A stretch of 33,988 nucleotides of DNA, taken from a virus. The translations under genes and the position numbers were made by a program. Shown here in pieces: positions 1 to 29,642 of this stretch. The stretch is taken from the IMG/VR virus record IMGVR_UViG_3300020172_004323, positions 1 through 33,988 of that record, one strand, 5' to 3'. How positions within the stretch are numbered: position 1 is the stretch's first letter; each line of letters begins with the position of its first letter. The notes below the pieces were generated by a model. The model was not told where the DNA came from. It made no database searches and was given only the letters and a program-made list of their open reading frames with translations.

Positions 1-447
1 CCATGTTGAACTGAAAGCAGGATTGCAGTAAGAGCAAGCGAATTGACAAGTACGGTCAAAACTAATTTCAAGAGTGCGAAGGTTAATATCTTCGGTGTAC
101 GATGTTTTGTATGCACGATCTAAATCCTCCAAGGGATAAATTTTACTTTTGTATACACGATCACTTATGGCATCGCGGTTCATATCTTCAATCTTCCAGC
201 AGTATTCACACCCTGCTGGACGTTCGCCGCGCTGCATCATCGCACGATCTTGTTTCTTTTGATCGGTGTTGTGCAGTAACCGAGGATTGTCGCGTAGTTT
301 ATTGATGTCTACTAAATGTGCCGGAGGATGATGACAACTTGTAGTCATGCCTGATCCTAACCAAATAGTCGCATTGTACCATTTGGCTGCACAAAAACTT
401 GCACTCTTGGTGTCAAGCACCTGTTGTTTAAACTCTAAGTCTGTCAT
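1..447 (-). CDS. Radical SAM protein with N-terminal twitch-like Cys region (partial)
   Basis: The 3' part is cut by the left window edge; 149 N-terminal residues are visible. The radical SAM cluster motif is C134-x3-C138-x2-C141 (CQFACSYC), which should bind a 4Fe-4S cluster and S-adenosylmethionine. Before it lie C19, C38, C80 and C83, the last two in GCEYCW. This spacing (19, 42, 3, about 51) matches that of the complete radical SAM protein at 3338-4696 (C21, C40, C82, C85, C132), so the two are paralogues. The family with cysteines ahead of the core is known as N-terminal twitch-domain radical SAM proteins; the extra cysteines probably bind a second cluster. The start ATG lies 20 nt inside the upstream hydrolase gene, as is usual in this operon, and gives an N terminus of the same length as the paralogue. 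The substrate is unknown; a glycan or a peptide is plausible from the neighbours. Confidence 0.88.
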   Translation of the reverse strand, partial: MTDLEFKQQVLDTKSASFCAAKWYNATIWLGSGMTTSCHHPPAHLVDINKLRDNPRLLHNTDQKKQDRAMMQRGERPAGCEYCWKIEDMNRDAISDRVYKSKIYPLEDLDRAYKTSYTEDINLRTLEISFDRTCQFACSYCNPAFSSTW

Positions 448-1150
448 AGATTTTTATTAATTCATTGGCAATATGTTGATGCCCTTGTACGTTGGGATGA
501 CAATGCCCTGGCCTAACATAAAGTTCTAAAAATTTCTTTTGTAGATCCCATTCAGCGTCAGTTAATGCCGGGCTATCACCATCAACTACTGTGCCTGATT
601 TGTTGTCAACAAGTGGCATAATAAATTGTGCAATACATTGTTCCTTTGGCACTAGCCATGCAGATTTGGGCACTACTGTTAACATAGAGGTTGGTTCAGT
701 AGTGAACAAATTGGCCAGGTAACATTGAACACCTAATTGTTGACACCATAGCCATAATAAACTTATTGTACAATCGTAATTGTACAGCCTTTGTGGCTGC
801 GTGTCAAAGTATTTGTACCATTTATCAGTGTAGGAATGTACATTTTTATTGTAATTTGGTCCAGGGATAATTTGTTCGTGTATCTGGGCATCGTTAAATC
901 TTGAAGTTCGATGACTGGGACTCAAACAAAAAAACACAACATCATCCTGTTGTAACTGATGAACAATGTTGTTAAACTTCCAAGGAATAATATCCGGACT
1001 TGATCCAGATTCTCCCAAATTAACACATTCAACTCCATAGTGGTCACTGAACAACTGTGCAAATACATATTGACTTCGTTGATCATACGGCACTGTGAGC
1101 TCTAACTCATCGCCTACTACCCAGCTGTCGCCAAACCAATAAAATTTCAT
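428..1150 (-). CDS. SGNH/GDSL-like hydrolase, putative carbohydrate esterase
   Basis: A 240-residue protein with the layout of the SGNH hydrolase fold. Block I is FGDSW at residues 6-10 (Ser9 would be the nucleophile), block II is near NLGESGSS (44-51), a beta strand with DDVVFFCLSP (69-78) resembles block III, and block V is HPNVQGH (218-224) close to the C terminus, with His218 as the likely catalytic base. Such enzymes usually add or remove O-acyl groups on sugars. The usual Asp three residues before the His is Gly215 here, so the triad is incomplete or rearranged. The ATG at 1150 overlaps the stop of the upstream gene (TAATG); a longer frame starting at 1252 would lie inside that gene and was not used. 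No signal peptide is seen, so it probably acts in the cytoplasm of the infected cell, on products of the neighbouring transferases. Function is inferred from motifs only. Confidence 0.72.
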   Translation of the reverse strand: MKFYWFGDSWVVGDELELTVPYDQRSQYVFAQLFSDHYGVECVNLGESGSSPDIIPWKFNNIVHQLQQDDVVFFCLSPSHRTSRFNDAQIHEQIIPGPNYNKNVHSYTDKWYKYFDTQPQRLYNYDCTISLLWLWCQQLGVQCYLANLFTTEPTSMLTVVPKSAWLVPKEQCIAQFIMPLVDNKSGTVVDGDSPALTDAEWDLQKKFLELYVRPGHCHPNVQGHQHIANELIKIYDRLRV

Positions 1151-2304
1151 TATGCTACCCCACAACTCTTTAGGAACTCTATGAACTTTTGGGGAAACTC
1201 TTTGCGTACCTGTTCTCGCATATTCCATAAATGCTTTTGATTGTACTCGCACACAGGCCTTGCCGAGTTTAAAAAACTTTTAAGATTGTTTTCGCTACTG
1301 CAAATATCCGCAACAACTGCATTTATTCTTCGGATACGATCTAGGTCGTTGTCTATGGCATCAAAACTTTCATCAATGATTTCGCCAAATGTCCGGAATC
1401 CTATATTCTGCATGTCTCTATAGTACCCAACATTGGCAACCGCTATCCAAGGATGACCAATTGCAATAGGCTTCCAGATTTTTTCAGTTCTGAAACTATA
1501 AGGATAGCTAAAAACAGTTTCTGTGACCACGCTAAAATAAGTGTCAATGTATGGTGTTGGATGTACATAGACTTCACCCCAGTCAAAGCCATTGCCATTG
1601 TTAAATAGGTCTGCCTTGGCAAATTCTCCAACAGGGGTAGTTGTTAGATTGTTTCTATAACGAGGAACTTCATAACAGGCATCAAGATATTTAATTGGCA
1701 TGTCTTGTTGTATCAAGTCTTGCCCTTGATGCATCAAACGAAATGTTTTACTGGGACGGCTTCCTGAATCAAGGTTTGTCCAAATAGCTTGATCTAACAA
1801 GCCACTTATTCTAAAGCTCTGCAGTAAAAACTTTCTATGTGGCCGTAGTCGTCCGTTTAGAAACAAAAATTTATAAGGCTTGTCAACAGTGTCAAAAATA
1901 TCGCTGGTATATGTGTACAAACTACGATTCTCAGGAATGTCAAACATCTTTGGCAAAAAACTTTCGTATTGTAGATAGCGATAACAGGATTCCATGTCTC
2001 CACCACCTATTAACAACATTCGTCCTTGTTTGACAAACTCATCTAAATGTAAATTTACAATTTGTCCTTTGAGTGTATCTGACCCTTCAGTGGGATTACT
2101 GAGAATTATTAACGTTTTACCTTGTGCAACTGTGTCCCTAACCTTTTCAATATTATGGTTGACTTGCGCACGACCAAGAACATATATTGCATTGTCAACT
2201 ACTTCTGTTTTCCCAAAGTCGTAAATTTCTACATCGGTGTATTGACGTATCAAGTCACTGATCTCTGCAAACCCATCAACAAATAACTTTTTGTTACCAA
2301 TCAT
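1150..2304 (-). CDS. GT10/fucosyltransferase-like glycosyltransferase (384 aa)
   Basis: The C-terminal half carries the motif FRTEKIWKPI (271-280), followed by GFRTF (302-306) and DES (311-313), a pattern shared with two other proteins in this operon (4686-5627 and 2301-3341). It resembles the C-terminal sugar-nucleotide binding motif of family GT10 alpha-1,3-fucosyltransferases, where the Glu and Lys contact the nucleotide sugar. A second shared motif, FLFLNGRLRPHR (146-157), precedes it. No membrane segment or signal peptide is visible. The start forms an ATGA overlap with the stop of the upstream gene, and the stop forms a TAATG overlap with the hydrolase gene, so translation is probably coupled. 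The donor sugar cannot be told from sequence; calling it a fucosyltransferase would go beyond the evidence. Confidence 0.68.
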   Translation of the reverse strand: MIGNKKLFVDGFAEISDLIRQYTDVEIYDFGKTEVVDNAIYVLGRAQVNHNIEKVRDTVAQGKTLIILSNPTEGSDTLKGQIVNLHLDEFVKQGRMLLIGGGDMESCYRYLQYESFLPKMFDIPENRSLYTYTSDIFDTVDKPYKFLFLNGRLRPHRKFLLQSFRISGLLDQAIWTNLDSGSRPSKTFRLMHQGQDLIQQDMPIKYLDACYEVPRYRNNLTTTPVGEFAKADLFNNGNGFDWGEVYVHPTPYIDTYFSVVTETVFSYPYSFRTEKIWKPIAIGHPWIAVANVGYYRDMQNIGFRTFGEIIDESFDAIDNDLDRIRRINAVVADICSSENNLKSFLNSARPVCEYNQKHLWNMREQVRKEFPQKFIEFLKSCGVA

Positions 2305-3341
2305 TTGAATAATCTATCTTTAAATAAACGCTGTTCTTCGGCATAGATGTAAAATCTACTTTGGTTATGCAATAAATCTGGCAGCATATCTGTGTATAGT
2401 TGCATGAGTTGATCAGCAGTCAATGTTGTTAGATATTGTATCGCTTGTACAATTGATTGATGAACCTCATCCTCGGTGATGTTTTCAAACTCAATGCCCG
2501 GGAAGTAATGATTGAAAGTTCTAAATCCGTTGTCACGCAACCACTGATATGTTCGAACATTGCCATTGATCAAGAACGGACGTAATCCAATAATTGGCTT
2601 CCATTGTGTTTCGCTTACAAAGATATCATCCCAAGGATAGAACTCTGTGGCACCTATTATGTTTAAAAAGTGCTGTTGCCAGACATTCATGTTGTGCAAA
2701 CTCAACACATCATGTGGGATTCCAAATGTATCTTCGCCGTTGTACCAATGTCCATACTGTTGATAGTCTTCAATGTTTTCACCAATATCAAAATATAAAT
2801 TATTGTCAGTGCTGTGGTCGTACACTTGATTTGGTTTTCCTAGGGTAATCACTCCGTATTGCATCAAGTCAGACTCTATCAAACACTTTACAAAATTTAC
2901 TCTATGTTGCCTTGGTTTGCGATTATAGTTACAGAACAACCATTTTGGAGTTTGTAAAAACAATTCATCATTGCTGTATTTTTTAAAACAATCAACTAGT
3001 ACCGGAGCAAAGAAATTGTAATGGTATTTGGTATCAAAGTTTCCAATTTTATATACAGTTGGGTTGCCTAGCTTTGCTGCCATCTGAGATATCGTATCAA
3101 CGGTGATCATTGCAGGATCTACCGTGGCCAGCAGAAACAAGTTATCAAATGTTTCGTTTAACTTTTTAAACTCCTGCCAGGCATAGTTGTTAAACTGTGG
3201 ACCAAACCATGTGGTGTTGATTACTAGATTGTTTTGTGCTTTGAATTTTTTCTGCACTTGATTCAACAATGAATCAACACACTGTTCCTCATAATGTCGC
3301 CACAACCATGTATCGGGAAAATTTAAGCCTATGTATTTCAT
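2301..3341 (-). CDS. GT10-like glycosyltransferase, divergent motif (346 aa)
   Basis: This protein is related to the 384-aa neighbour: it has KWLFCNYNRKPRQHR (133-147), matching the other's FLFLNGRLRPHR, and a C-terminal block FVSETQWKPI (241-250) followed by PFL (255-257) and GFRTF (272-276). In the other two relatives in the operon the first block reads TEKIW; here it reads SETQW, so the Lys that would contact the nucleotide sugar is lost. Activity may be altered or the residue may be replaced structurally. The ATG at 3341 was chosen because it gives an ATGA overlap with the stop of the radical SAM gene, matching most junctions in the operon; a start at 3404 would add 21 residues inside that gene. 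The role is probably sugar transfer in the same pathway, but substrate and product are unknown. Confidence 0.62.
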   Translation of the reverse strand: MKYIGLNFPDTWLWRHYEEQCVDSLLNQVQKKFKAQNNLVINTTWFGPQFNNYAWQEFKKLNETFDNLFLLATVDPAMITVDTISQMAAKLGNPTVYKIGNFDTKYHYNFFAPVLVDCFKKYSNDELFLQTPKWLFCNYNRKPRQHRVNFVKCLIESDLMQYGVITLGKPNQVYDHSTDNNLYFDIGENIEDYQQYGHWYNGEDTFGIPHDVLSLHNMNVWQQHFLNIIGATEFYPWDDIFVSETQWKPIIGLRPFLINGNVRTYQWLRDNGFRTFNHYFPGIEFENITEDEVHQSIVQAIQYLTTLTADQLMQLYTDMLPDLLHNQSRFYIYAEEQRLFKDRLFK

Positions 3342-4696
3342 CTGGCGTGCATCTCGCATTCTTTCCAGAAAGTCATCATCTCTGGAAAAGAGTTTGAAAA
3401 CCAAGTGCCTCTGCGTTGGTCGTGTTCACTGAAGAAACGATAGAAGTCGGCTCGTGCTGTGCTGATCTCCGCAGGGTCCTGTGGTTCTCGCATCCAATCT
3501 AAGGCACGTTGCATACGCTGTATTTCATAATCCTTGAAGCCCACAAAGCTATTGTCAGGCATGAGATTCTGCTGCATGAATTCTATATGTTGTTCCATGC
3601 GTCGTTGATATGCCACAGGTAGTATTTGTAAACTCTGCCAACGTGGTTGTCTCAACAATGGTGTGTCAAACCATACACGTTGATAGGTCTTACTGTGCCT
3701 GGCACGTAGTTCTAAAATGTAATCCAGCAGTTGATCTAATCCTGTGACACTGAGATTGTTTAGAGTAACAATAAATGTAAGGCTGTTGCGATCGGGAACT
3801 TCAGTGAGATACTCGTTGACATGATCCAGCATCAAATTCATATCAAGTCCGTTCCTGATGTATTCGGCTTGTATCCAATCCCCAGTATCAACGCTGACGT
3901 ATTGCATAAAGTGTTCAATTTGTGTGTTGCATAAACGTTTGACATAATCAAGATAGCGTGAAAATATGTGATGGTCAACACTAAAATTTGATGTGACGTT
4001 TAGGTGCAAGTCCATCTTGGGCAATGCCAACACATAGTCAAACACACGATATGTGTTTTTGTCCAGCAATGGTTCACCGCCGGTCATACGAAAATGTTTT
4101 AGGCGAGGATATAACTGAGGCCACCAACGCCAGAATGCTTCTACATAAGGGTTATCTTCGCGAACAGGTATAGGCTTACGACGCCCGTTAAAATGACTCG
4201 GCTCATTATGAGGGACTCTAGTAGGATAGGCCCCATGTCGGTTAGTTTCGTCGGCCCACGTTGAACTATACTGTGGGCTGCAATAGCTACACTTGAGATT
4301 GCAAACATTACTAAAATTAACTTCCACATAGGTAGGTATAACATCTTCATCTCCAGTTAAATTTGTTAGATCTATATCAGCCCAGGGCTCTCCTGAACGA
4401 TAATGCCGGTCTGATAAGTTGCCCATGTCCTCTTGTGTCCAACAGTAACTACACTCATCTGGACGTTCGTTGCGTAACATAATCTTACGCTGAGATTTTT
4501 TATAAGGTGTATTGTGTAACGCACCAGGGTTGTCAGCCAGCAGTGTAGCATCTATTTCATGCAGCGGTGGATGATAGCAACTGTTGGTCATACCGGTGGT
4601 GAGATGCAGGCTGACTTGTTTCCATTTAGCATAGCAGCGAGCATGCCCAAGGGTGTCCTGCATGTGTTTGGCTGCGTTTAAAAAATCACTGCCCAT
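3338..4696 (-). CDS. Radical SAM protein with N-terminal twitch-like Cys region (452 aa)
   Basis: The radical SAM core is shown by C132-x3-C136-x2-C139 (CNLKCSYC), followed by MTGGEPLL (204-211), the GGE motif that contacts S-adenosylmethionine. Ahead of the core are C21, C40, C82 and C85 (ECSYCW), which fits an N-terminal twitch domain holding an auxiliary iron-sulfur cluster. Members of this family occur in marine phages and bacteria and their substrates are mostly not known; twitch and SPASM domains are best known from enzymes that modify peptides or sugars. The start at 4696 overlaps the upstream transferase by 11 nt. A paralogue with the same cysteine spacing begins at 447. In this glycosyltransferase operon, radical chemistry on a sugar or on a glycosylated protein is plausible but unproved. 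The family call is firm, the reaction is not. Confidence 0.93.
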   Translation of the reverse strand: MGSDFLNAAKHMQDTLGHARCYAKWKQVSLHLTTGMTNSCYHPPLHEIDATLLADNPGALHNTPYKKSQRKIMLRNERPDECSYCWTQEDMGNLSDRHYRSGEPWADIDLTNLTGDEDVIPTYVEVNFSNVCNLKCSYCSPQYSSTWADETNRHGAYPTRVPHNEPSHFNGRRKPIPVREDNPYVEAFWRWWPQLYPRLKHFRMTGGEPLLDKNTYRVFDYVLALPKMDLHLNVTSNFSVDHHIFSRYLDYVKRLCNTQIEHFMQYVSVDTGDWIQAEYIRNGLDMNLMLDHVNEYLTEVPDRNSLTFIVTLNNLSVTGLDQLLDYILELRARHSKTYQRVWFDTPLLRQPRWQSLQILPVAYQRRMEQHIEFMQQNLMPDNSFVGFKDYEIQRMQRALDWMREPQDPAEISTARADFYRFFSEHDQRRGTWFSNSFPEMMTFWKECEMHAR

Positions 4697-5627
4697 GTCT
4701 AACTCTCAAAAAATTATCTTCGGTTAATGACATAAATGTTTGATAGTTGTGTTCTAGGATATCTGTCATTTCAGTGTACATGGTGTGTAATTGCTGTGGG
4801 GTTTTTGATGCAATAGATTTGATGACTTGAATTATTTCAATTGGTTGATAATCTGCAGGATCTTCGCTGTATCCTTCGTCCCACCATTTATCAAATGTTT
4901 TAAACCCCATGAGCTTCAAGTTTGCCAGAAAGTTTTTAGGACCTTGCACGATAAAAGGAGTACGTAATACAATAGGTCTCCAGATCTTTTCAGTGCAAAA
5001 AAATGTCTGTCCTGTAAAATATGTTTCACAAACAACTTCAATAAAAAATCTATTGTAATGTTCTGCAATATCAAGGTGATGATCAAGCAGTATTGGATAC
5101 GATGTTATTTCATCTAAGTGCATTGGCGTACCAAGTAAGAATTTACAGGCTTTTTCAAATGCTGGTTTGCCATAGTTATATAATAAATTTTCTAATCCTA
5201 AGTTGTTACAATGGAACTCATTTGAACAATCAAAGTGAAAAGTTTGCAATGATGAATAGTCAGCTACTACTGATGACAATAAAAGTCTTTCGGCATTACT
5301 GCGCCCTATAAAAATTCCAAATGTCCTAGCATCTTGATCCTTGGTAACAATTTTAGTACCTAATCGTTGTGTACTGTCAACAAAATGCATAGGCGGTTGA
5401 TAACGTACATTTTTCCAACTCTCTTCCAAAGCATTTGAAGTTTGCAGAATCAAATTTTTTGCTTGGGATTGTTCTAACATTTTATCAAGTCCAAGACTTA
5501 CAGCACAAGGCCCTTCGGCTGCTAGATCAACAATGGCATTGTCATCAGCACGTAAAATATCACTGACAACTTCTTTGATATTCCATATGCGACTATCGCT
5601 GGTCCGAACAGTGATAAAATTAGACAT
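4686..5627 (-). CDS. GT10/fucosyltransferase-like glycosyltransferase (313 aa)
   Basis: The C-terminal part has FFCTEKIWRPI (209-219), then TPFIVQGP (223-230) and GFKTF (241-245), the block shared by three proteins in this operon and resembling the nucleotide-sugar site of GT10 transferases. The stretch ENLLYNYGKP (146-155) and the N-terminal 100 residues are not recognised. No membrane segments are seen. The ATG lies 8 nt inside the upstream transferase gene, and a GAAGG element sits just before it at a distance fit for ribosome binding. The stop lies inside the start of the radical SAM gene. Together these suggest coupled production of transferase and radical SAM enzyme. The sugar donor and the acceptor are unknown. 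Confidence 0.68.
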   Translation of the reverse strand: MSNFITVRTSDSRIWNIKEVVSDILRADDNAIVDLAAEGPCAVSLGLDKMLEQSQAKNLILQTSNALEESWKNVRYQPPMHFVDSTQRLGTKIVTKDQDARTFGIFIGRSNAERLLLSSVVADYSSLQTFHFDCSNEFHCNNLGLENLLYNYGKPAFEKACKFLLGTPMHLDEITSYPILLDHHLDIAEHYNRFFIEVVCETYFTGQTFFCTEKIWRPIVLRTPFIVQGPKNFLANLKLMGFKTFDKWWDEGYSEDPADYQPIEIIQVIKSIASKTPQQLHTMYTEMTDILEHNYQTFMSLTEDNFLRVRHGQ

Positions 5628-6525
5628 TACCTTCTCTATTCATTATCCCAAGATTACGCCAATTAGATTGATAGTGGTGTTTAAAGAATTGGCTTTCACC
5701 GGCTTGCGTATAATGCATTGGTAAGTTTAATTGTGTTTGCAACTCTTCGGCCATTCTACCAGCCAGTGTGTTGGGTTCTTGATATTGCACCGACTTCCAG
5801 AGGCCCGCTAACTCGTCAAAATCCTGCACTTTTGTATAGTCCCACTCGGTGAGCATTGTCATATAAGTACCTTGTCTGGCACCAGCAATTGCCCACTCTC
5901 CGTTTTCTACATCGCGACCAATGTTGTGCCAAATAGTTAGATTGTCTAAGTTACGTTGAGCCACACGGTCTTGGAACTCACCAATAGTAGGACGACGTCC
6001 ACGGTCTAAACACATCTTAACTCCTTCACGGAAGCCAGCACGCCATGCTTGAAAATCTATGGCATTGATATGTGTCGTTGAATAGCAATCGTGCATTGCC
6101 CAGTATTGTGGATGAAAACAAAACTCCACAGCAGTTTCATTGCTACCATCTGATGCTTCGTGTGTTTGCATATTCAAGGCAAACTCGCGTGTCCAACAAC
6201 TTACGCCACCATTGCCGTACATTAGTCCATTGACGCTATTCCTGGCACGCCAGCGGAATACACAATCGCGGTTGGTATCATCCAACTCCAATGTACGTGA
6301 AAAAAAGCCGATATCAGGGATATTATCACCATCAACAAGCACAAAGCGATCAGTGACGGAAGCCATCGCTGCCGCTTTGTGGGCAGCGTCTGACCCTTTA
6401 ACACCATCTACTCGTCGTGCCCAGGGTACCATGTTCCGAACATGTGCCCAATTCGTCTCAGCATTTGGTTCATCATAAGTTAAAAATATACAATCTAAAT
6501 CTGCAATATCAATTTTCTGAATCAT
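5620..6525 (-). CDS. GT2-like glycosyltransferase (301 aa)
   Basis: The N terminus has a Rossmann-like strand, IFLTYDEPNAE (13-23), and then VLVDGDN (62-68), a DxD motif that in GT-A enzymes binds the metal and the diphosphate of the donor sugar. GVKGSDAAHKAAA (41-53) and YGNGG (103-107) are also features I recall from similar phage proteins annotated as glycosyltransferases. The length fits a single GT-A domain plus a C-terminal extension. The start overlaps the preceding small gene by 17 nt and the end overlaps the next by 8 nt, so the gene is part of the tightly packed operon. Donor and acceptor cannot be predicted. Family membership beyond GT-A/GT2-like is inference. Confidence 0.75.
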   Translation of the reverse strand: MIQKIDIADLDCIFLTYDEPNAETNWAHVRNMVPWARRVDGVKGSDAAHKAAAMASVTDRFVLVDGDNIPDIGFFSRTLELDDTNRDCVFRWRARNSVNGLMYGNGGVSCWTREFALNMQTHEASDGSNETAVEFCFHPQYWAMHDCYSTTHINAIDFQAWRAGFREGVKMCLDRGRRPTIGEFQDRVAQRNLDNLTIWHNIGRDVENGEWAIAGARQGTYMTMLTEWDYTKVQDFDELAGLWKSVQYQEPNTLAGRMAEELQTQLNLPMHYTQAGESQFFKHHYQSNWRNLGIMNREGNV

Positions 6526-6841
6526 AGTTTTTTACTACCCATCGGTTAAGGGAGGAGTCACTAACTATTGTCACGTCATTGGGATCACACGCAAATCCAA
6601 TGTTGCTGGGTACTAGTTTGCGACTGGTGTTTATGCTGGTGCGTATTAGTTTGCCGTCACGCACTCTTACATAACTGCTGGATTGAAAATAAGTTTCTTT
6701 GTCAATATCAATATAATTACCTGGTAAATCCTCCATACTGTAGAATAAGGGTAACCCTTGATCATCGTAATACAGTCTATAAAATATTGGGTGCGGCTCG
6801 GGCCCAGCGTGTAAGATATTCCAAAATTCTTCAGGTGTCAT
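6509..6841 (-). CDS. Small conserved-looking protein of unknown function (110 aa)
   Basis: I do not recognise a characterised family. The N terminus, MTPEEFWNIL, is followed by PIFYRLYYDDQGLPLFYSME, an aromatic, beta-rich stretch, and the rest is hydrophilic. From memory, similar short proteins occur next to glycosyltransferases in marine phages, but no function is known to me. The start at 6841 gives an ATGA overlap with the upstream transferase stop; a longer frame from 6937 would lie wholly inside that gene and is rejected. Its place between two transferases suggests an accessory role, for example as a partner or adaptor, which is inference. Confidence 0.7.
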   Translation of the reverse strand: MTPEEFWNILHAGPEPHPIFYRLYYDDQGLPLFYSMEDLPGNYIDIDKETYFQSSSYVRVRDGKLIRTSINTSRKLVPSNIGFACDPNDVTIVSDSSLNRWVVKNYDSEN

Positions 6842-7614
6842 GGCTGCCAGTCCTTGATATGATAGTGAAATGCTCCCCACTGCGCCACAGTTTGAATACG
6901 CAAGGGATTGGTTTCCCAAACTAGTTCTTGTGTCCAATTGTCAGTGCGAGTGTTGATGATGTGTTTCTTCATGTGAACTATTCGTGGATAGCTGGCAAAT
7001 GGCATAGTACATCGGTCCACTCCAACAATTTGTGCAGCTATAGCATACACTACATCAGTGCTGGCTTCTTCGTCGGCAAACTTCAACAGTCGGCGATACT
7101 CAGTCCAATGTTCAAATATATCGCGCACCAGTCGAAAAAACTCTTTGGCTGTGTCACTGACCCGCCAATATGTTATAGCATTGTAGACATCAGGCAAGTT
7201 GTTTGTGTCAAACAATTTTCTATAGAATCGAGATTGTGCGGGTTGATCGTAATAATCTCTGCATCCAGTACTGATACAGACGTCACGATGTTGCATCATC
7301 TCCCACCAATGATTAATTGATGATGCAATGATCATGTCAGCTTCAAGTTTTATAGTTTGACGAAATGGTGATGCCTGAAACATTTGCCAGTCGTTGCACT
7401 GTTTGTTATCGCCTGTGCTGCAATCGCCGTGTGGCAAAGGAATCACATAATCAAATACAGAATCTGCACAACGCCGTAATGTCACCACAGCGATTTTTGC
7501 CTCAGGCTCAAACTGTCTTATGCTATGTGCCAGCTGTTGCGCACAGCGCACATAGTCAGTAGATTCGTTGTCAAGCGCCGGTATTAGATAACCACGTTCA
7601 GAGAGGATTGGCAA
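6838..7614 (-). CDS. GT-A type glycosyltransferase-like protein, TTG start (258 aa)
   Basis: This protein appears related to the preceding 271-aa transferase. Its TIKLEADMIIA (87-97) lines up with TLVVDADYVVA in that protein, so the DxD metal site is EAD here (91-93). Both then have an Ile/Phe strand, a segment with W-x-x-Y-R (here EHWTEYRRL) and an acidic block ahead of an alanine-rich helix. The start codon is TTG at 7614, supported by AGGAG at 7621-7625 six bases upstream and by the absence of a better in-frame ATG nearby; the frame overlaps the upstream gene by 17 nt. The N terminus resembles a GT-A fold (YLIPALDNESTDYVRCA). Sugar specificity is unknown, and the EAD variant may or may not bind metal as usual. 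Confidence 0.66.
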   Translation of the reverse strand: MPILSERGYLIPALDNESTDYVRCAQQLAHSIRQFEPEAKIAVVTLRRCADSVFDYVIPLPHGDCSTGDNKQCNDWQMFQASPFRQTIKLEADMIIASSINHWWEMMQHRDVCISTGCRDYYDQPAQSRFYRKLFDTNNLPDVYNAITYWRVSDTAKEFFRLVRDIFEHWTEYRRLLKFADEEASTDVVYAIAAQIVGVDRCTMPFASYPRIVHMKKHIINTRTDNWTQELVWETNPLRIQTVAQWGAFHYHIKDWQP

Positions 7615-8413
7615 CTATGGCTCCTAGATCTCTTTTGCCCATGGCGTGAAAACTAACTCCTCGCAATCGCACATATTTTGGCCCACCGGCAGTTGAAGTA
7701 TAGTTGATCTGATAGTCGTCTTTGCCGGTTTGAATTAGTTGATGATCGGGCATCACTGTTGCCATCCTGTTTCTAAAGGAATCTACTTTCAATGTATGCC
7801 CGGTATAGATTCCCAACGCGATACTCAGTGCAAAGTCATTGCGATACGTGGAACGCTGTATTTTATAGAGATCGCGATAGTGTTGCCAGTTGTCACGTAT
7901 CATTTGCATGGAATCAAATATGTACTGAGCTGCTGTGCTCTTTCTAAAAATCATCACTGTGGCCCACCACATAGGGAAATCGTGTTCGCCAAATATATTG
8001 AGCCTGTCAAAGCCATGTGCCCCAACAGGTTCAAATGCTTCTTTGTAACATTGAAAATCTTTATCGTTTTCCAGATAATCTTTGAAATTATTGTTGGCTA
8101 CAACATAGTCAGCATCAACAACCAAGGTCCGATCGTACGGTGTCAATGTGTAGGCATCCATGCGATTGGTGTTGTACCAGTCTACAGTTTTTTCAATGTC
8201 CTGAAAATGTCGCGTGCCAGCTGGGGGCTTCTCTACTACAATAACACGATCAAACTGATCGTACGCATCTTGAAACTTGGGATTGATTTGATCAGTGACT
8301 AACGATGTTGGTATGTTAAGATGTCGTCGGATATTGCCAGCACTCCATGCGGCCATGGTCACATAGTTTATTTCAGCATTGTTAAATGCAAATATCAACG
8401 CACCAGTGGTCAT
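7598..8413 (-). CDS. GT-A (GT8-like) glycosyltransferase (271 aa)
   Basis: ALIFAFNNAE (5-14) followed by a Thr-x-Asp strand (LVTD, 38-41) and RTLVVDADYVVA (95-106) fit a GT-A fold; Asp100-Ala-Asp102 is the DxD metal site. A later NDFALSIALG stretch is typical of GT8-like and related phage transferases, where the Asp lies near the acceptor site. A C-terminal SFHAMGKRDL carries a His-x-x-Gly-Lys-like element, which in GT8 enzymes binds the donor phosphate; this match is weak. The start overlaps the upstream small gene as ATGA. The next gene encodes a likely paralogue. Role: transfer of one sugar in a glycan made by this operon. Donor unknown. Confidence 0.77.
   Translation of the reverse strand: MTTGALIFAFNNAEINYVTMAAWSAGNIRRHLNIPTSLVTDQINPKFQDAYDQFDRVIVVEKPPAGTRHFQDIEKTVDWYNTNRMDAYTLTPYDRTLVVDADYVVANNNFKDYLENDKDFQCYKEAFEPVGAHGFDRLNIFGEHDFPMWWATVMIFRKSTAAQYIFDSMQMIRDNWQHYRDLYKIQRSTYRNDFALSIALGIYTGHTLKVDSFRNRMATVMPDHQLIQTGKDDYQINYTSTAGGPKYVRLRGVSFHAMGKRDLGAIVANPL
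7621..7625 (-). promoter_or_regulatory. Ribosome binding site deciding a TTG start
   Basis: On the minus strand AGGAG lies six bases before the TTG at 7614. It is one of the clearest Shine-Dalgarno elements in this operon and supports TTG as the start of the 258-aa transferase-like protein. Confidence 0.6.
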
Positions 8414-8715
8414 CGCAGTTGACTCAATTCTTCAAATTCTACCAACCAAGCCGTCATCTGTTCGTTCCAACGTTCCTGACTCATTGGCAGTAATTCTTGT
8501 GTGTTGATCTTGACAGGATTACCATATAAGTCTGGCAATACAACTTCTCCCATACGACCACAGGTGAATATCATATTATTAAGTTCTGGCCCAGCGCTCC
8601 ACATACCGCCGCGATAGGCAAATATCATTTTGGCTTCGTACTTTTCACGAAGTATACGTCGGGCTGCCTCGTGATTAAAACGAGCGCGGCTATGTGATAA
8701 TAAGTCAGTTTCCAT
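8410..8715 (-). CDS. Small conserved-looking protein of unknown function (101 aa)
   Basis: First gene of the modification operon. The sequence is mostly helical with charged residues (RARFNHEAARRILREKY) and ends in ELLPMSQERWNEQM and a helix. I recall similar short proteins in marine T4-like phages but no known function. The start at 8715 is chosen because upstream in-frame codons run through a hairpin terminator (8748-8767) and into the upstream fibre gene. There is no Shine-Dalgarno element, and a TATAATAA box ends four bases before the ATG, so the message may be leaderless or the true promoter may lie elsewhere. Its stop forms an ATGA overlap with the first transferase. It could be a small partner of the transferases; this is inference. 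Confidence 0.72.
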   Translation of the reverse strand: METDLLSHSRARFNHEAARRILREKYEAKMIFAYRGGMWSAGPELNNMIFTCGRMGEVVLPDLYGNPVKINTQELLPMSQERWNEQMTAWLVEFEELSQLR

Positions 8716-8719
8716 CGTG

Positions 8720-8727
8720 TTATTATA
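8720..8727 (-). promoter_or_regulatory. Possible promoter box TATAATAA before the modification operon
   Basis: Minus-strand TATAATAA lies directely between the terminator hairpin and the ATG at 8715. It matches a bacterial -10 box (TATAAT) and is one insertion away from the T4 late box TATAAATA. No convincing -35 box is seen. The box is so near the ATG that a transcript from it would have almost no leader. Confidence 0.35.
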
Positions 8728-8747
8728 CAGGAAGGTTAGATAAAAGT

Positions 8748-8770
8748 AAAGGGCCCTAAGGCCCTTTTTG
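8748..8770. terminator. Bidirectional-looking intrinsic terminator
   Basis: A perfect 8-bp stem (AAAGGGCC at 8748-8755 with GGCCCTTT at 8760-8767) closes a 4-base loop. Read on the minus strand it is followed by TTTACTTTTA, and on the plus strand by a short T run. It sits just after the stop of the 322-aa fibre gene and before the modification operon, so it most likely ends the structural transcript. Confidence 0.72.
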
Positions 8771-8786
8771 TTGCCAAATTGGTATA

Positions 8787-9755
8787 TTAGGTAGTTGTTG
8801 CCGCAACAGTTGGGGTTCCCCAAGCAGCCGAAGTTAGATAAGTTGAACTAGGTGGAAAGTACGTTACAAGAGTTGCTGGACACGTGCCAAAACTAGCTCC
8901 ACTGGGTGCTGTTCCGCCAGTCACTGTGTCGCCTTCGGCGTTGAACCAAGTTGTAGTTAGATCTAAAGTTGTGCCTGTGTTTCCTGTTTTGGCCTGAACT
9001 TGAATATAGTTGCCGGTGTATGGTGATGTATCCCCAAATTGTTTGTAGATAAGTACATTTGATGTTGTGAGTTGATACCAGCCAGTTGTAGTTGTTAAAG
9101 TATTTGGTGTGCCAGTTCCGCCTATTTTAGTTGTGCCTGTGTATGTAACGCCAGCGATTGATTGAGCGCCACTGTTAATTCTTCCAGAAATAAAAATTGA
9201 TCCGCACAAGGTCTGCGCAAGATCGTTGAATTCTGGATCGCCAAAGTTACCGGTTGAGCTTTTACCAAATGCAATTTTAACCAAGCCACCAGCATTGAAA
9301 AAATAACGAGCTGCATTGACCGAAGCAAATGTCACTGTATGAGTAAACGTAATTGAACTACCAACGCCAGTGATATTATTAGTTTGCCCAGAAGTGCCTG
9401 ACCAAGATATGTATTGCGAACCTGATGCAGCAGCATTGCCACGATTAGCAGTAATAGAAGTTAAATCAGTGTTGATATTAGACAATACAGCAATAGTGTT
9501 ACCAGCAACCGGTGCAGTACGACTAGTGATAGTGGTACCAGTCTGACTGCCCATTGCAGAGATCTGATTAACTAAAGTCGCCCATTGCGTTGCAGTAATT
9601 GTTGAAGCAGCCGAAACTGTGGTCAATGCTGATTCTCCCCATCCAAAATCACTACTGCCAGTTGACCAAACCCCATTGATGTTTGCACCACTATTGGTAG
9701 ATATGAAGCCATTGTAATCTGTGGCTTCAATTAATCCGCCTGATGAATATGTCAT
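8787..9755 (-). CDS. Fibre-type virion structural protein (322 aa)
   Basis: A Ser/Thr/Gly-rich, beta-strand-rich protein with few charged residues, as expected for a tail or head fibre component. The N terminus (GGLIEATDYNGF, then GWGES, ATQWATLVNQI and TITSRTAPVAGNTI) resembles a conserved structural protein that I recall from marine T4-like phages. The middle has FFNAGGLVKIAFG and the end is a Thr-rich tail (AATTT). The ATG at 9755 has a TAAGGA element that overlaps the stop of the upstream fibre gene 10 bases away. It is the last gene before a terminator hairpin. Exact position in the virion is unknown; its partner may be the 467-aa protein just upstream. Confidence 0.78.
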   Translation of the reverse strand: MTYSSGGLIEATDYNGFISTNSGANINGVWSTGSSDFGWGESALTTVSAASTITATQWATLVNQISAMGSQTGTTITSRTAPVAGNTIAVLSNINTDLTSITANRGNAAASGSQYISWSGTSGQTNNITGVGSSITFTHTVTFASVNAARYFFNAGGLVKIAFGKSSTGNFGDPEFNDLAQTLCGSIFISGRINSGAQSIAGVTYTGTTKIGGTGTPNTLTTTTGWYQLTTSNVLIYKQFGDTSPYTGNYIQVQAKTGNTGTTLDLTTTWFNAEGDTVTGGTAPSGASFGTCPATLVTYFPPSSTYLTSAAWGTPTVAATTT

Positions 9756-9765
9756 TACTTTGTCC

Positions 9766-11169
9766 TTACTTGATAGTTACTATGGCTTCTACCATACTTT
9801 CATTTGATTCTACCTTGGATACCAAGGCACGACCAATTGTATTAAAGGCTGTGGCTTCACCAGGAAGTGCTGCTCTAGCTAATCCATTTCCGGCGCTGAC
9901 TAACCGATCGCCTTTGTTAACTAATCCAACACAGCGAACTGGCACTCGTCCAGTCATTGCAACGGGTGGATGGGTATCATCTTCACCAGCTCCACCGTTC
10001 ATTAAGAAAGCTGCTCGTGTACTTATGACCCCAAATACGTTTTCGCTTAGTTCATCAAGGGATTTAGTGATTTCTTCAGTACCACCCAGCTCAACCACTG
10101 TACCAGGAGCATACTCAGTATCAGCTGCAAAACGTTCAGCAACGTCAGCATAGAGTGCTGTGGTAGCTGTTGCAAACACACGATTAAAATAACTTGAGCT
10201 TGAGCCAATATTGCCCACCGCATTGGTACCTGTTTTGGTAATACCTGATACGCTAATGTTGCTGAACACCGGAGAAGTATTACCAAAGTTAACTACACCA
10301 TTGGCACCATCTAACACCATGACTGTGGTGGTAACGCCACCGTCATTTACTGTAAAATTAATGTTGGCATCTTGAGTTTGATTTTGCAATGTTACAGTAG
10401 TACCTGCTACTGAAGCTTTAAAATCGCTATTAGACCCAACGGTTATCCCGGTGTTGTTTAAAACACCTAACGATACTGCCATTGTTTGGCCTGACCCAGT
10501 TGTACGAATAAAGCCTGAACTTGCAACACCATTTAGCAACACTGCGTTGGCAGCTGTGCCTTGGAACAATGGAACCTGTGCTCCAACTGTAGTGGCCAAT
10601 GTAATACCAGGTTTGACTGTGGTAAATCCTGGAATGCCTGCACCAGCAGGTGTAAATTCTGCGTCTTGACTTACCATGCCCACCACTGTGTCAGCCACAG
10701 TGAGCTTGATTACTGTGTGAGTAACACCCGCCGGGGTGTCAGTAATCAATGCAGGGATAGCACCAGTGGTGCCTGTACCGGCACTACTCTGGGGGCCAAC
10801 TAGAATAAATGCTGTACCATTGTAAACATTTAATTGTTGGTTAGGAATATCATACCATAGGTCACCAACAACATTGCTAGTAGGCGCGGTATTGGCAGCA
10901 GTGGCAGCAGAAATAGTTTTAAAACTAGTCCCGTTGTAGACTTTTAGTAAGTTGCTACCTTTGTCCCACCAAAGTTGTCCAGTGAGTGGATTTCCTGGCG
11001 CAGTGACGCTGGCAGCATTTTCCAACAAATGGATAAAGTTGCTGTCCAGGAACTCGCCGTAACCTGCATAGTTTTTACCAACTAGCACCATGTTGCTTGA
11101 TGTGTTGATAGTACCATCTGCAATAGTTGCAAACGGGGTACCGTCAGTTAAGTTAATCTGGTAAGCCAT
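9766..11169 (-). CDS. Tail-fibre-type structural protein (467 aa)
   Basis: The N-terminal part has two copies of a short module, GQLWWDKGSNLLKVYNG (64-80) and GDLWYDIPNQQLNVYNG (102-118), each spaced about 38 residues; such modules are common in marine phage fibre proteins. The middle is a long beta-rich Thr/Val/Gly region. The C-terminal domain starts near YADVAERF (about 338-345) and continues with PGTVVELGG and GRVPVRCVG, a domain found at the C termini of many phage fibres. Whether it is an autoproteolytic or trimerisation domain cannot be told here. Upstream lie two NATAAATA motifs and an AAGGACAGG ribosome site 9 bases before the ATG, so it probably has its own late promoter. Confidence 0.82.
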   Translation of the reverse strand: MAYQINLTDGTPFATIADGTINTSSNMVLVGKNYAGYGEFLDSNFIHLLENAASVTAPGNPLTGQLWWDKGSNLLKVYNGTSFKTISAATAANTAPTSNVVGDLWYDIPNQQLNVYNGTAFILVGPQSSAGTGTTGAIPALITDTPAGVTHTVIKLTVADTVVGMVSQDAEFTPAGAGIPGFTTVKPGITLATTVGAQVPLFQGTAANAVLLNGVASSGFIRTTGSGQTMAVSLGVLNNTGITVGSNSDFKASVAGTTVTLQNQTQDANINFTVNDGGVTTTVMVLDGANGVVNFGNTSPVFSNISVSGITKTGTNAVGNIGSSSSYFNRVFATATTALYADVAERFAADTEYAPGTVVELGGTEEITKSLDELSENVFGVISTRAAFLMNGGAGEDDTHPPVAMTGRVPVRCVGLVNKGDRLVSAGNGLARAALPGEATAFNTIGRALVSKVESNESMVEAIVTIK

Positions 11170-11218: not shown

Positions 11219-11226
11219 TATTTATG
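11219..11226 (-). promoter_or_regulatory. Late-promoter-like motif CATAAATA
   Basis: Minus-strand CATAAATA overlaps the stop codon of the 200-aa gene, 49 bases ahead of the fibre gene start. The same octamer lies upstream of gp6 (29660-29667). One of the two motifs in this gap is probably the functional one. Confidence 0.45.
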
Positions 11227-11824
11227 CATTAGTGCTGAGGTTGGTCAGCGTTTGTATGCGCAGGGTATAGTCAATTTGTATCTGTCTGTTTAAGCTTTTT
11301 TGTACCGGGTGAAAAATCACGTGGGTAATCAATCGCAGATCAGTGGCAGATCCATTCCATGTTTTAAGTCCAAGTTCGTCAAACACATATTCACCACTAA
11401 AATTGGTGCTGTTGTCAAACGCGGCTTGTCCAGCTGGTTCTCCGTAATCTAATAAACAAGTTACTAAAATATCAGTGTAGAATTTACCAGGAGTGTGTAA
11501 TACTGTCATTTTGTTATTGATAGGATCAGCATTGTCTACACTGCTATCATCAACAACCTTTTGGTATGTTTGATTGTAAAGTGTGGCATTTTGACCCACT
11601 GTATTTGGAGGCAAGTATGTGATGACCCCAGTTGGATCAACTGAACTACCACCATTGCCAAACGCCATCTGATAGATATATCCGGTGTTTTTATCTGCTA
11701 GGGTTTGAGCCATGCTTACAGATATATTTTCATAGTGAATTGCGTTCTTTTTATCCACAAGCACTTCTTTGGTTTGCGGATCAGTGATTTTAATAAACCC
11801 TTCAATCTGTACAGGTACTTGCAT
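11222..11824 (-). CDS. Virion structural protein of unknown function (200 aa)
   Basis: I do not recognise a named T4 homologue. The N terminus, VQIEGFIKITDPQTKEVLVD (5-24), is a beta hairpin pattern, and the rest is beta-rich with YQMAFGNGG (51-59), ending in an IQIDYTLRIQ strand. Its place among baseplate and fibre genes and the gene order suggest a tail structural or fibre-attachment protein. The 47-aa frame just upstream ends in a sequence that matches residues 3-26 of this protein (see that entry). The start overlaps the upstream stop as TAATG, with GGAGG 10 bases upstream of the ATG. The stop overlaps a late-promoter-like motif for the next gene. Confidence 0.72.
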   Translation of the reverse strand: MQVPVQIEGFIKITDPQTKEVLVDKKNAIHYENISVSMAQTLADKNTGYIYQMAFGNGGSSVDPTGVITYLPPNTVGQNATLYNQTYQKVVDDSSVDNADPINNKMTVLHTPGKFYTDILVTCLLDYGEPAGQAAFDNSTNFSGEYVFDELGLKTWNGSATDLRLITHVIFHPVQKSLNRQIQIDYTLRIQTLTNLSTNA

Positions 11825-12000: not shown

Positions 12001-15000
12001 TTAAACCTGTCCTTGCAAGAATCTTGCAGCTGGGGTAAGTTGCACTTGCAACGGAGCACCATTGCTGGCAGTGTCTACACCTGGATTATACCACGACAAT
12101 CCTTGAACTATTCCAATTGTAACTTGTACCCCTTTTGCTGGAGGGTCATAAAAAGTAACAGTGGCCGGATTTGGTGATGTCAATACATATTGGGTTTCAG
12201 GTACCGGTATACCACCCACTAGAACTCTCAATGCTTCGGTGTATTCAGTGCTGTCAATGATCAACAAATCAACATTGGGAGCAGTGAACACAGTTTGAGT
12301 TCCATTTGCAATGATATTTGTATAGACAAATTCATCTTCGTATCCTTGTTCAAGGATACTCTCACGGCCCATAGCAATAACCTTGTCTCCTGCATAATGA
12401 TTTGCTGCTGCGGTACCAGCGGTTCCTCTTAGAAGCCCTGATAATGTATTGTTGCCAAGATCCCTGTATCTGTACATTATACGCTCTCCGTTTATAGTCA
12501 CTACTCCCCAAGCGTTTTGAGTCAATGCTGGTTCGCCACATGCGCTGGCATTTTCAACAAACACAATATCATCATCATACGCTAGATACTCGCGCAATAC
12601 AGTGGTAGTGCTAGGTAAGATTCTGTAAGTTGCCTGCAACCCACGCATATCTTGGAAAATACGGAATGCCATGGCTTCTGGAACTGTAAAATCAGTAAAC
12701 AAAATTGCTACTACTACGTCAGTTGGTGAAATAGTAAAATTAAGTGTTAGAAATGAAACGAACTCAGTGCTAGTAATTGTATAATCAAGCCCATTGAATA
12801 ATCTACGACCGTTGTAGCTGACAATCATCCGTGCTGGATTCTGATTACCTTGGTTTAGATTAAAGTCATTATAACTTAAAATAATGCCTTCGCTGTAGTC
12901 GTAACTTCCTGCTCCACCAGTTGTTGAGCCAAACGAAAATGGAAATTCATCAAATGTTTCAAAATCAGTTCCACCTTCAGAAATTGGCCCATCCCAGACC
13001 AGTTGTACAATATTTTGTTCGCTGGTGTCATTCCAGGTGGTTACAGCTATCTGATCTCCAGGTTGCAACCCAAATGAACCTGATAGTCTAAATGTTATTT
13101 GATCATCTGATATGACATAATCAGCTCTGGTGTTTACACACACCAACACACGGTCGCCAACTACTGGAACATAGCTTAATAAAATTGTTCTTGGGCCAAA
13201 TCCATCCCACGGAACCACTGTAAAATCACTGCCTAGTATCTGTGCCACGTCATTGACGTAGACATGAACTTCGTTGTCAGCTATAAGACCTTGACTGTAT
13301 CCCCCACGCTGAGGCATTAAAAATTCCGCACTTGATCCATCGCCAGTCCATAGAACCCCCTGTGACGGTCTTGCCATTAACCCATTCACTGTAACATAAG
13401 CGTTGTCAATATTTGACCCTTGCAAACTGTTGGTCAACGTATAAGTTAGTTCTGTTGTACTAGATAATGGAACTATTGATGACACTGTAATATACTGAGT
13501 GACAGGCACGCTCCAGCTATTCTGTGGTGTCTCGTATCCCATTACTGTTAGTTCAATGAAATCAAAGCTGGTTAAAATTATCAAGAAGTTAATTTGTGTT
13601 ATTGTGCCAGCCAATTGTTCATAGGTATAATCTGCGCCCTCGGTTAATAAAACACCATTTACAAAAATAACCAATTCATAAATTTCACTGTAGGCGACTT
13701 CAATTTCAAGGCGATTACCAACTTCAGACCCATCGTAGTTGGCACGTAACAGCTGATTTCCTCCGCCCATCTGATATACTGTTATAACAATGATGTCTGA
13801 CAATACTGCACCACTGGAGTATACAGTCACAGTTTGATTGACCCAGTCAATTGTATAATTAGTACCAAGCGTTAAATCACGCCCCACTGTGGCATTGCTC
13901 ACACGAACCGCACTTGGATGCAAGACTTGAATGCTTGAAGACTCCCCAATGCCACTCCAATCAATTGTGGGATCAAGTGGGTTGTATTCTGCTCTGAGTT
14001 GCAAAATACCAAATCCAAACCCCTCCCCACTCCAGTCTGATCCGGGTCTTGTGAACACCTTTAAATCAAGTGTGTCAAATTCTTGTCCAGGAACTAATTC
14101 TTGCGGAGCATGGCTTGAGTAAGTATCAACAAATGCACCACCACTGACATTGACATCATCTGGACGAGTGCCAAGATAGATATCAAGGAAACTGCTCTCG
14201 TATTGCGCATTTAGTATCGTATCGCTGTATGTTGGACGACCTTCTGCACCAAAATCTAAGTTGTCCCAGGGTGTGATATCAAAAGGACCATGGTCAAATC
14301 CAGTATCGTATTCAAACGGTACACCTGCCACCTGCACACCTGGATAGTCAACTCCGTCAATTAACAACGGTAATTCTCGTCCAGGTTGATTGATTCCGGC
14401 AACATAATAGCCCATGGTACGATCAACCCCACTGAGATCGTTGATTGGGACCAAGGTCCAGTCCGCAGGATCAAATGTTGGGGTATTGACCCCAGTGCTG
14501 TCCGGACTATTTGCTGCCCAAATTCTAGCAGCAAATCGCACTAATTGCCCGTTGTCAAATGTAATGTTGGGTTGCCATTGTTCTATATTGGTTTGATATT
14601 CACAACGGTCAAATTTAATAGTAGTAAAGATACTGCGTACCAGACCGTTGGTCATGTATGCCACTGCTTTAGCGCCGGTACCATTACCGCCAGTGATAGT
14701 AACTATGGCTGTGGTTAGGTAACCCAAACCAGGTGTAGCGATCACAACATTAATAACTTCCCCAGCTGAGTTGATGCGGGCAAATGCAGTTGCTTGTGTG
14801 GTTGCTACACCTGTAATTGTCACTGTGGGGATAGATGTATATCCAGAGCCTCCGTCAACAATGACGATTTCTTCAATTGATAATTTATAATTGTCAAACC
14901 ACTGATCATACGGTGTTGTCTGCCAAATAATGTTATTACTGGCTCGGTCACTGGGCCCGGTCTCAGTCTCGCTAAGAATTGGGCTGACATATTGCGGGAC

Positions 15001-29200: not shown

Positions 29201-29642
29201 TGGGGTCATTCCAGTTCACAGTGATGTTGGCCAGATTTACCCCGTTGTAATCTGTGATATTTTCTGTGGTAGACACCGCTGTGACTTTGATCAAGCCTTG
29301 CGCTGCGGTGTTGCGTTTGGCAGTGTAACTGACCAAGTTGGCCAGGCGATTGACAGAATCGCGACGCTCGGCTGTGTCCAGGTAGTTTTCACGGGCATTT
29401 AAGTCAGCTCTAAAAGCCAACGATTGCCCCATGAAAGCAATGACATCTAGCAGTGCAATGAATTCTGAACTTTCAATGTAATCATTAAAAGTTTCCGGAT
29501 AGTATAAACGCAAATAGTCTACAAAACTCTTGCGTAGAGTCTCAAAATCGTAGCTTTGAAAATCAGCTTCACGATAGGTCTGATAGATCTGTTTCCAGTC
29601 TTCGACTCCAAAAATAACGGTTTGTCTGGTAGTTTTAGCCAT
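26226..29642 (-). CDS. gp6: gp6-like baseplate wedge protein (1138 aa)
   Basis: The N-terminal 130 residues (FETLRKSFVDYLRLYYPE, FIALLDVIAFMGQSLAFRADLNARE, RLANLVSYTAKR) are typical of T4-like gp6. A block near residue 416, IKQRAPARYYTQNRMVNGEDY, is the conserved part seen in gp6 and gpJ-type wedge proteins. The C-terminal part (about 1000-1138) has a KPLFGAKATAQLRATI stretch, the FTIDKWDFGDTF element and a hydrophobic GTIVSSVVLVPV strand, again as in gp6/gpJ. At 1138 aa it is well above T4 gp6 (660 aa), with extra beta-rich insertions in the middle, as in other marine phages. gp6 dimers tie the wedges into the baseplate ring and control sheath contraction. It is preceded by CATAAATA, has no clear Shine-Dalgarno element, and its stop overlaps the giant protein's start. 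Confidence 0.93.
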   Translation of the reverse strand: MAKTTRQTVIFGVEDWKQIYQTYREADFQSYDFETLRKSFVDYLRLYYPETFNDYIESSEFIALLDVIAFMGQSLAFRADLNARENYLDTAERRDSVNRLANLVSYTAKRNTAAQGLIKVTAVSTTENITDYNGVNLANITVNWNDPTNTDWFEQFTSIINAALINSQRYGNPGNNQTIINVKTEEYTLNLVQGYLPVIPYTATVDGVNMPFEAVNATSTGQTYLYEPAPLPNGAFNILYRNDQLGFGSNNTGFFFLFKQGSLQSADFNLAEKVSNRVVAINIDGINNEDRWLFQLDDIGTVQSEWLYTESVYTAAAEQSTTGLRKIYSTQSRANDQISLTFGDGVFSAIPVGLFRAYVRSSNGLEYIINPEEMQSIVLPISYVSRTGRIETLTFTVNLQTPVSNAQTRESIDEIKQRAPARYYTQNRMVNGEDYNLFPFTLYNSIIKSKALARSAIGTSRYLELVDTTNKYASTNVFGSDGGLYKDNALPTFQFSWFTTNDIADAVTNKVQPLLTQPGILQFYYANFTRPNLAVLNIEWSQSTALTNLCTGYFRSLLSPFFPYPVGSFSSSNTQYIVPNSLVKFVPPDGYYFDQYNHLVAGIPTADTDKSFIWATVTSVVLDGTNQGQGNLDNGTGPIALNNYVPTGAIATQVIPLFLTDLPSTIVQNVIELIRLYRNFGLGYNNLTSTWYIVTQTNLDTTGEFSLINQQSNAGVYNDSSWLIDFVTDGTQYSVTARELTYYFASVLQTRFFFESGASIYDSRTGTVIKDFIRVLKTNSQPASNSPLTGDTTMQIIGQPEQSDGYVDDFQVIVSFQDSDADGAADNPDFFAEIVGSDPTAGQSGSLVFLEATVDFDNLQRYLLTEKGYVNYQYGTLSEITSNITQYLDGQVFYAYDDQIFYVLNITLDGTRELTESTEFLAKIGRQDLYYQYRHNSLLTNRIDPSITNIIDVYVVTQSYYTAYQNWIKDSTGTVIEPTVPTIDELTTEFQKLQDYKMISDNLILNSVVFKPLFGAKATAQLRATIKVIRASNSTASVSEIKNLVVASLNTYFTIDKWDFGDTFYFSELAAYIHSQIGTIVSSVVLVPVNPQKSFGDLYEIRSAPNEIFVNAATVANIEVIDALTSTNIRTAPGSGVI

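Follow-up and report, generated by a model that had tools for sequence, protein, structure and literature searches.

The locus described here raises the question of what a virus does with radical S-adenosylmethionine (SAM) enzymes that are encoded among glycosyltransferase (GT) genes and next to fibre genes. It lies at the beginning of a virus record of 33,988 bases (IMG/VR record IMGVR_UViG_3300020172_004323, analysed in its whole length and called the window here), which cuts the gene cassette off, so that only the 5' start of the cassette is visible. From the sequence alone, two radical SAM genes of the window, rSAM1 and rSAM2, had been placed inside a glycosyltransferase/hydrolase operon with which the phage would make an unusual sugar or a peptide-glycan crosslink, perhaps on its own fibres; this proposal is called the sequence-only reading below. 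Comparison with related loci indicates instead that rSAM2 and rSAM1 are members I and II, respectively, of an array of five radical SAM (RS) paralogues, and a two-gene operon was therefore rejected, as the window simply ends inside the second member.

Altogether, 158 viral stretches were found to encode relatives of rSAM2, and 80 loci were retained for comparison. In T4-superfamily jumbo phages the radical SAM paralogues form five clades, RS1 to RS5, which follow each other in a fixed order, and gene clustering gave the core order fibre - f322 - o137 - GT8 - GT8 - o142 - GTd - RS1 - RS2 - RS3 - RS4 - RS5 - c8 - SGNH - carbamoyltransferase. Among the 58 RS1-anchored loci with enough flanking sequence, RS2 and RS3 were each present in all 58, RS4 in 49, RS5 in 56 and c8 in 56, and several of the loci without a separate RS4 have RS3 and RS4 fused. 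Fusions of RS1 with RS2 and of RS3 with RS4 into single proteins of about 840-900 amino acids (aa) occur in some phages (L077, L165, L146, L065, L011 and others), and marine relatives in metagenome bins display the same arrangement with RS4 and RS5 swapped. When c8 was used as the anchor, RS5 was detected in 62/62 loci and the carbamoyltransferase (PF02543, 97.6 bits) in 58/61. The c8 protein (for example L004:15439-16515) possesses HxHF, HxxE and HxxQxGK motifs that are invariant in phage and bacterial copies, and this pattern of residues suggests metal binding. Neither GTd nor c8 had a match among 50,697 phage records, and profile searches against the PDB yielded nothing useful for GTd, c8 or the GT-B family.

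With regard to the radical SAM proteins themselves, the sequence-only reading was accurate. The cysteines of rSAM2 are arranged as C21-x18-C40-x41-C82-x2-C85, followed by C132xxxC136xxC139, and the spacing in rSAM1 is identical. Both proteins match NF033640 (N_Twi_rSAM, curated cut-off 170 bits), the complete rSAM2 with 302.1 bits, above the cut-off, and the truncated rSAM1 fragment with 113.7 bits, and so do 31 of 31 scanned array members (best E 2e-123). Besides this family match, the assignment as N-twitch radical SAMs is borne out by matches to Pfam SPASM in 10 of 18 N-terminal pieces of array members and by an N-terminal domain profile that aligns to the C-terminal twitch domain of BtrN with the cysteines in register (E ~0.005); these sequence comparisons identify the N-terminal domain as being of the twitch/SPASM type. 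The possibility that the array members are degenerate enzymes was rejected, as the seven cluster cysteines are kept throughout 369 full-length array proteins, a single position being kept in 368/369. The core of the AlphaFold model of rSAM2 (predicted local distance difference test, pLDDT, 92) resembles SkfB (Z 14.3), DesII (13.8), BlsE (13.7) and also SuiB, the matches ranging from Z 13.5 to 14.3 over 218-246 residues, and since these enzymes match about equally well, the fold does not separate a peptide from a sugar substrate. BtrN was absent among the fold matches listed for this model.

For the genes on the fibre side of the array, 72 RS1-anchored loci were counted, and GTd, GT8 and o142 were each present in 72/72, f322 in 71/72 and o137 in 68/72. 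GTd-anchored loci were used as well, so that the array itself was not the anchor, and RS1 was found in 55/57 of these, the other two carrying different N-twitch radical SAMs. The proposed placement of the radical SAM genes in a glycosyltransferase/hydrolase operon thus stands for their tie to GT and fibre genes, whereas the GT10-like and SGNH genes named in that proposal turned out to be its variable part. Upstream of the cassette, a run of genes on the same strand encodes a gp5-like hub, gp25-like and gp6-like baseplate proteins, a 4741-aa virion protein and fibre-like proteins. From f322 to rSAM1 the genes overlap or are in near contact, and nearly all junctions overlap by 4-100 nucleotides when the starts of the longest open reading frames (ORFs) are used, several starts being uncertain, in agreement with the overlaps noted earlier.

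We tentatively favour, with somewhat less than even confidence, the reading that the phage uses the cassette to add a decorated glycan to fibre or baseplate proteins of its own and that the radical SAMs act on a component of the product; a virion target is proposed because of the position of the cassette and its collinearity with fibre genes. The window would then contain the 5' portion of a modification cassette, probably expressed late, which in this T4-superfamily jumbo phage immediately follows the fibre genes. The GTs, the carbamoyltransferase and the SGNH enzymes would assemble a glycan on the fibre or baseplate proteins and decorate it, and the variable enzymes would alter its outer residues in a serotype-like manner. 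The five radical SAMs might work in succession, or as complexes, and introduce changes that start from hydrogen abstraction (epimerisation, dehydrogenation, bond formation); either a sugar or the acceptor protein would receive these changes, c8 being the putative partner of the enzymes. Alternatively, GTs, carbamoyltransferase, SGNH enzymes and radical SAMs might act on the surface of the infected cell, changing its O-chain or capsule and so blocking superinfection by competing phages. The authors of the pelagimyophage survey read GT8-rich host recognition clusters, in which radical-SAM cassettes also occur, in this way (PMC7029224), and the variable cargo resembles genes of O-antigen loci. 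Such remodelling of the host surface appears rather unlikely to us, as the cassette runs collinear with the fibre genes and f322 is almost always part of it, and as none of the clustered cassette families was recognised as a flippase or polymerase, although no search was aimed at them.

The intervals GTd-RS1, RS1-RS2 and RS4-RS5 vary from locus to locus, being empty or containing GT10-like genes, GTb, SGNH genes, a family that looks by eye like sulfotransferases, or extra radical SAMs; intervening genes are seldom found in RS2-RS3, RS3-RS4 and RS5-c8. In a close relative (the L002 phage), RS1 is 91% identical to that of the window, the counterparts of GTc and GTa are 37% and 54% identical, respectively, and neither GTb nor the SGNH gene is present. 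As GT10-like genes occur in 32/58 loci and have diverged even between close relatives, they were rejected as members of the core; GTb occurs in only 5/58 loci. The two GT10-like genes and the SGNH-like gene reported between the radical SAM genes do exist; for the former the name GT10-like appears valid at the level of the predicted fold, and the latter scores below threshold. No GT family match in Pfam or NCBIfam was obtained for 24 scanned members of the GT10-like genes. The model of GTa has a GT-B fold, and its top match is the alpha-1,3-fucosyltransferase 2nzx (GT10; Z 12.7, 4.1 Å, 269 aligned), tied with the T4 beta-glucosyltransferase, a GT of phage HY126 and other GT-B enzymes, and the best Foldseek match is EXT1/EXT2. 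The SGNH-type scores were 17.3 bits for the window gene with PF13472 (cut-off 32.9) and 27.5 bits for the cassette family c3, which reached 38.1 against 27 with DUF6071. The tie with the T4 and HY126 enzymes, together with some non-cassette N-twitch radical SAMs that adjoin replication genes, would fit a role in DNA hypermodification, in which GTs and radical SAMs make modified bases on phage DNA, but the cassette lies within a run of baseplate and fibre genes and none of its genes was recognised as encoding a base-precursor enzyme, which makes this role highly improbable.

N-twitch radical SAMs are also found outside the cassette. NF033640 matches number 11-19 per record in eleven jumbo phage records (320-364 kb), weak matches to other radical SAMs included; matches above the curated cut-off are fewer, yet clearly more than five in most. 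The only cultured relatives among the 50,697 phage records are Vibrio phages K566 and K567, found along with one marine single-cell fragment, and K566 (L082:23543-31342) has a related arrangement, with GT8 genes interspersed among its N-twitch radical SAM genes.

Bacterial counterparts were detected in Bacteriovoracia (class by NCBI lineage; the loci are titled Bacteriovoracaceae), where 58 of 116 sampled genomes carry the N_Twi_rSAM family. In the tree, bacterial sequences adjoin every phage clade; support for this placement is moderate in the case of RS1, RS2, RS3 and RS5 and negligible in that of RS4. A bacterial chromosomal contig (L370, G072:C41:60000-79900) displays the order RS2-RS5-RS6-RS3-RS4-x-RS1-RS2, followed by a nucleotidyltransferase-like gene, close to genes that read as obgE and rlmH by their protein starts. 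RS2 occurs in 5/6 RS5-bearing genomes and in 9/116 overall (P=4.6e-6, and P=1.5e-4 within the 58 family-bearing genomes), and all 17 of 17 c8-bearing genomes carry the N_Twi_rSAM family (P=1.9e-6), genome relatedness being ignored in both comparisons; within the 58 family-bearing genomes the association of c8 with RS1-type genes was not significant (P=0.24). Bacterial N-twitch radical SAM genes are flanked by a conserved protein, about 310 aa long, whose motif RNS...SD[ILV]D is of the pol-beta nucleotidyltransferase type (L355, L358-L362, L364-L366, L370, L372, L374, L095, L096), which had no Pfam match in the three proteins tested and was not found in phage loci. In a bacterial bin (L353, G012:C7:85000-104900), seven consecutive N-twitch radical SAM genes are located downstream of ATP-synthase-like genes. 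GTd had no match in eight array-bearing genomes or records, a result that tells little because the search had no positive control.

From these data it might be argued that the RS set and c8 form a pathway complete in itself, with a peptide, a protein or a small molecule as its target, the glycan genes being merely co-located in a host-recognition island. Such a pathway would account for RS1-RS5 arrays, some with c8, in Bacteriovoracia where GTd went undetected, for phage copies that sit amid replication and other genes, for the nucleotidyltransferase-like protein beside the bacterial radical SAMs, and for the peptide maturases SkfB and SuiB among the fold matches. However, the sugar enzymes DesII and BlsE match the fold equally well, K566 likewise pairs radical SAMs with GTs, and in phages the GTd-GT8-f322 genes and the array are almost never apart, so that we consider a fully separate pathway doubtful. 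The RS set, often with c8, nevertheless looks like a module of its own, which Bacteriovoracia also keep and which phages couple to glycan genes, because the non-cassette copies mostly lack GT neighbours and Bacteriovoracia carry the same groups. Radical SAM genes without the transferases, named as counter-evidence in the sequence-only reading, are thus found for most non-cassette phage copies and in bacteria, where no GTd was detected, but not within the cassette.

Several observations weigh against modification of the virion with a glycan as we propose it. The GT8 and GTd assignments come from weak profile matches and motifs, and the co-conservation counts do not represent independent events because related contigs have common ancestry. 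It is gene order alone that points to the virion, and the substrate may be either a sugar or a peptide. The chemistry of the radical SAMs need not concern glycans, because the bacterial arrays have no GT neighbours and because most non-cassette phage copies, scattered amid replication and other genes in the regions fetched (L341-L352), have none either. In addition, the pelagimyophage study interprets the GTs of a similar island as modifying the host O-chain (PMC7029224). With these reservations, the overall interpretation offered earlier is partly supported, and a peptide-glycan crosslink may or may not be what is formed. There is a fair, though less than even, chance that RS1-RS5 and c8 constitute an undescribed biosynthetic unit common to aquatic jumbo phages and Bacteriovoracia, whose radical-derived modification the phages couple to virion glycans. 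Five intact paralogous radical SAMs kept in order across many uncultured phages are an unusual investment for a virus, and if the set is one pathway, it would represent radical chemistry not described before. Owing to the corresponding array in bacteria, its function can be tested outside an uncultured phage.

The features of the window are collected in Table 1. The 4741-aa virion protein also matches the FG-GAP repeat, and the gp6-like protein shares about 35% identity with its counterparts in jumbo myoviruses such as GAP32, 121Q and Atu_ph07. Neither Rfam families nor tRNAs were found in the window, and the numbers of promoter-like sites (43, with 34.4 expected, standard deviation 5.2) and terminator-like sites (10, with 9.5 expected) were uninformative.

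Table 1. Features of the window, with positions counted from its first base.
Feature	Position	Strand	Evidence and remarks
rSAM1 = array member II (RS2)	1..447	-	N-terminal 149 aa of ~445, cut by window edge; NF033640 match over model 2-136; complete orthologues in related loci
SGNH/GDSL-like hydrolase or acyltransferase, variable cargo	428..1144 (ORF extendable to 1252)	-	PF13472 below cut-off; counterpart in L003
GTa, GT-B fold, GT10-like glycosyltransferase, variable cargo	1150..2304	-	AlphaFold pLDDT 92; VIA structural match 2nzx; TEK motif
GTb, GT10-like glycosyltransferase, variable cargo	2301..3404	-	Aligns with GTa and GTc, motif region common; start codon uncertain
rSAM2 = array member I (RS1), N-twitch radical SAM	3338..4696	-	Complete, 452 aa; NF033640; AlphaFold model
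GTc, GT10-like glycosyltransferase, variable cargo	4686..5627	-	Alignment with GTa and GTb
GTd, core GT-A-like glycosyltransferase	5620..6525	-	DGDN motif only; in all RS1-anchored loci
o142, short conserved cassette protein, no assigned function	6509..6937	-	In all RS1-anchored loci; start uncertain
GTe, core GT8-like (glycogenin-like) glycosyltransferase	6838..7614	-	Weak glycogenin profile matches, best E 0.05; phrog_1903
GTf, core GT8-like, paralogue of GTe	7598..8413	-	Weak glycogenin profile matches
o137, short conserved protein encoded between f322 and the GTs	8410..8823	-	Conserved in RS1-anchored loci; start uncertain
f322, Ser/Thr/Gly-rich virion-like protein, cassette core, candidate acceptor	8787..9755	-	Conserved in RS1-anchored loci; alignment with marine relatives; putative virion role
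fib467, fibre-like protein	9766..11169	-	phrog_14394 virion structural protein, 5.5e-8; PF11962 18.4 bits, sub-threshold
o200, conserved phage protein, no assigned function	11222..11824	-	phrog_11259, 237 bits
4741-aa virion structural protein	12001..26226	-	phrog_10938, 926 bits
Baseplate wedge protein, gp6-like	26226..29642	-	phrog_10646, 942 bits

Both the N_Twi_rSAM family and the presence of radical-SAM cassettes in phage host-recognition islands are already known. The array members belong to NF033640, whose name supplies neither a function nor the array, the partner c8 or the glycan cassette. As described in the pelagimyophage study, the host recognition cluster of these T4-like phages unites tail fibres, GT8 genes and gene cassettes for radical SAMs within a single variable island located between VrlC and gp14; the radical-SAM genes came as additional cassettes in one of the two genomes compared and are missing from freshwater members (PMC7029224). 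The gene content of our locus, with fibres, GT8-like genes and radical SAMs in a variable island of T4-like phages, is similar, whereas a five-member array is not described in the passages covered of that account (PMC7029224). Neither the five-member array nor its partner c8 nor the bacterial counterpart was described in the open-access literature covered, mostly as titles and abstracts, which included work on marine viromes and on large aquatic phages. BtrN, a radical SAM dehydrogenase of an aminoglycoside pathway, carries its twitch domain at the C-terminus, whereas the array proteins carry theirs at the N-terminus. The likeness to SkfB and SuiB, which act on peptides, and to DesII and BlsE, which act on sugars, concerns the core fold only, the N-terminal domain and the array context not being common to them. 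To our knowledge, no radical SAM array is involved in the virion glycosylation of mycobacteriophages. Glycans on capsid and tail tube subunits of mycobacteriophage virions are reported (Freeman 2023, as cited in PMC12619734); modification of the virion by the cassette described here is proposed from its genes.

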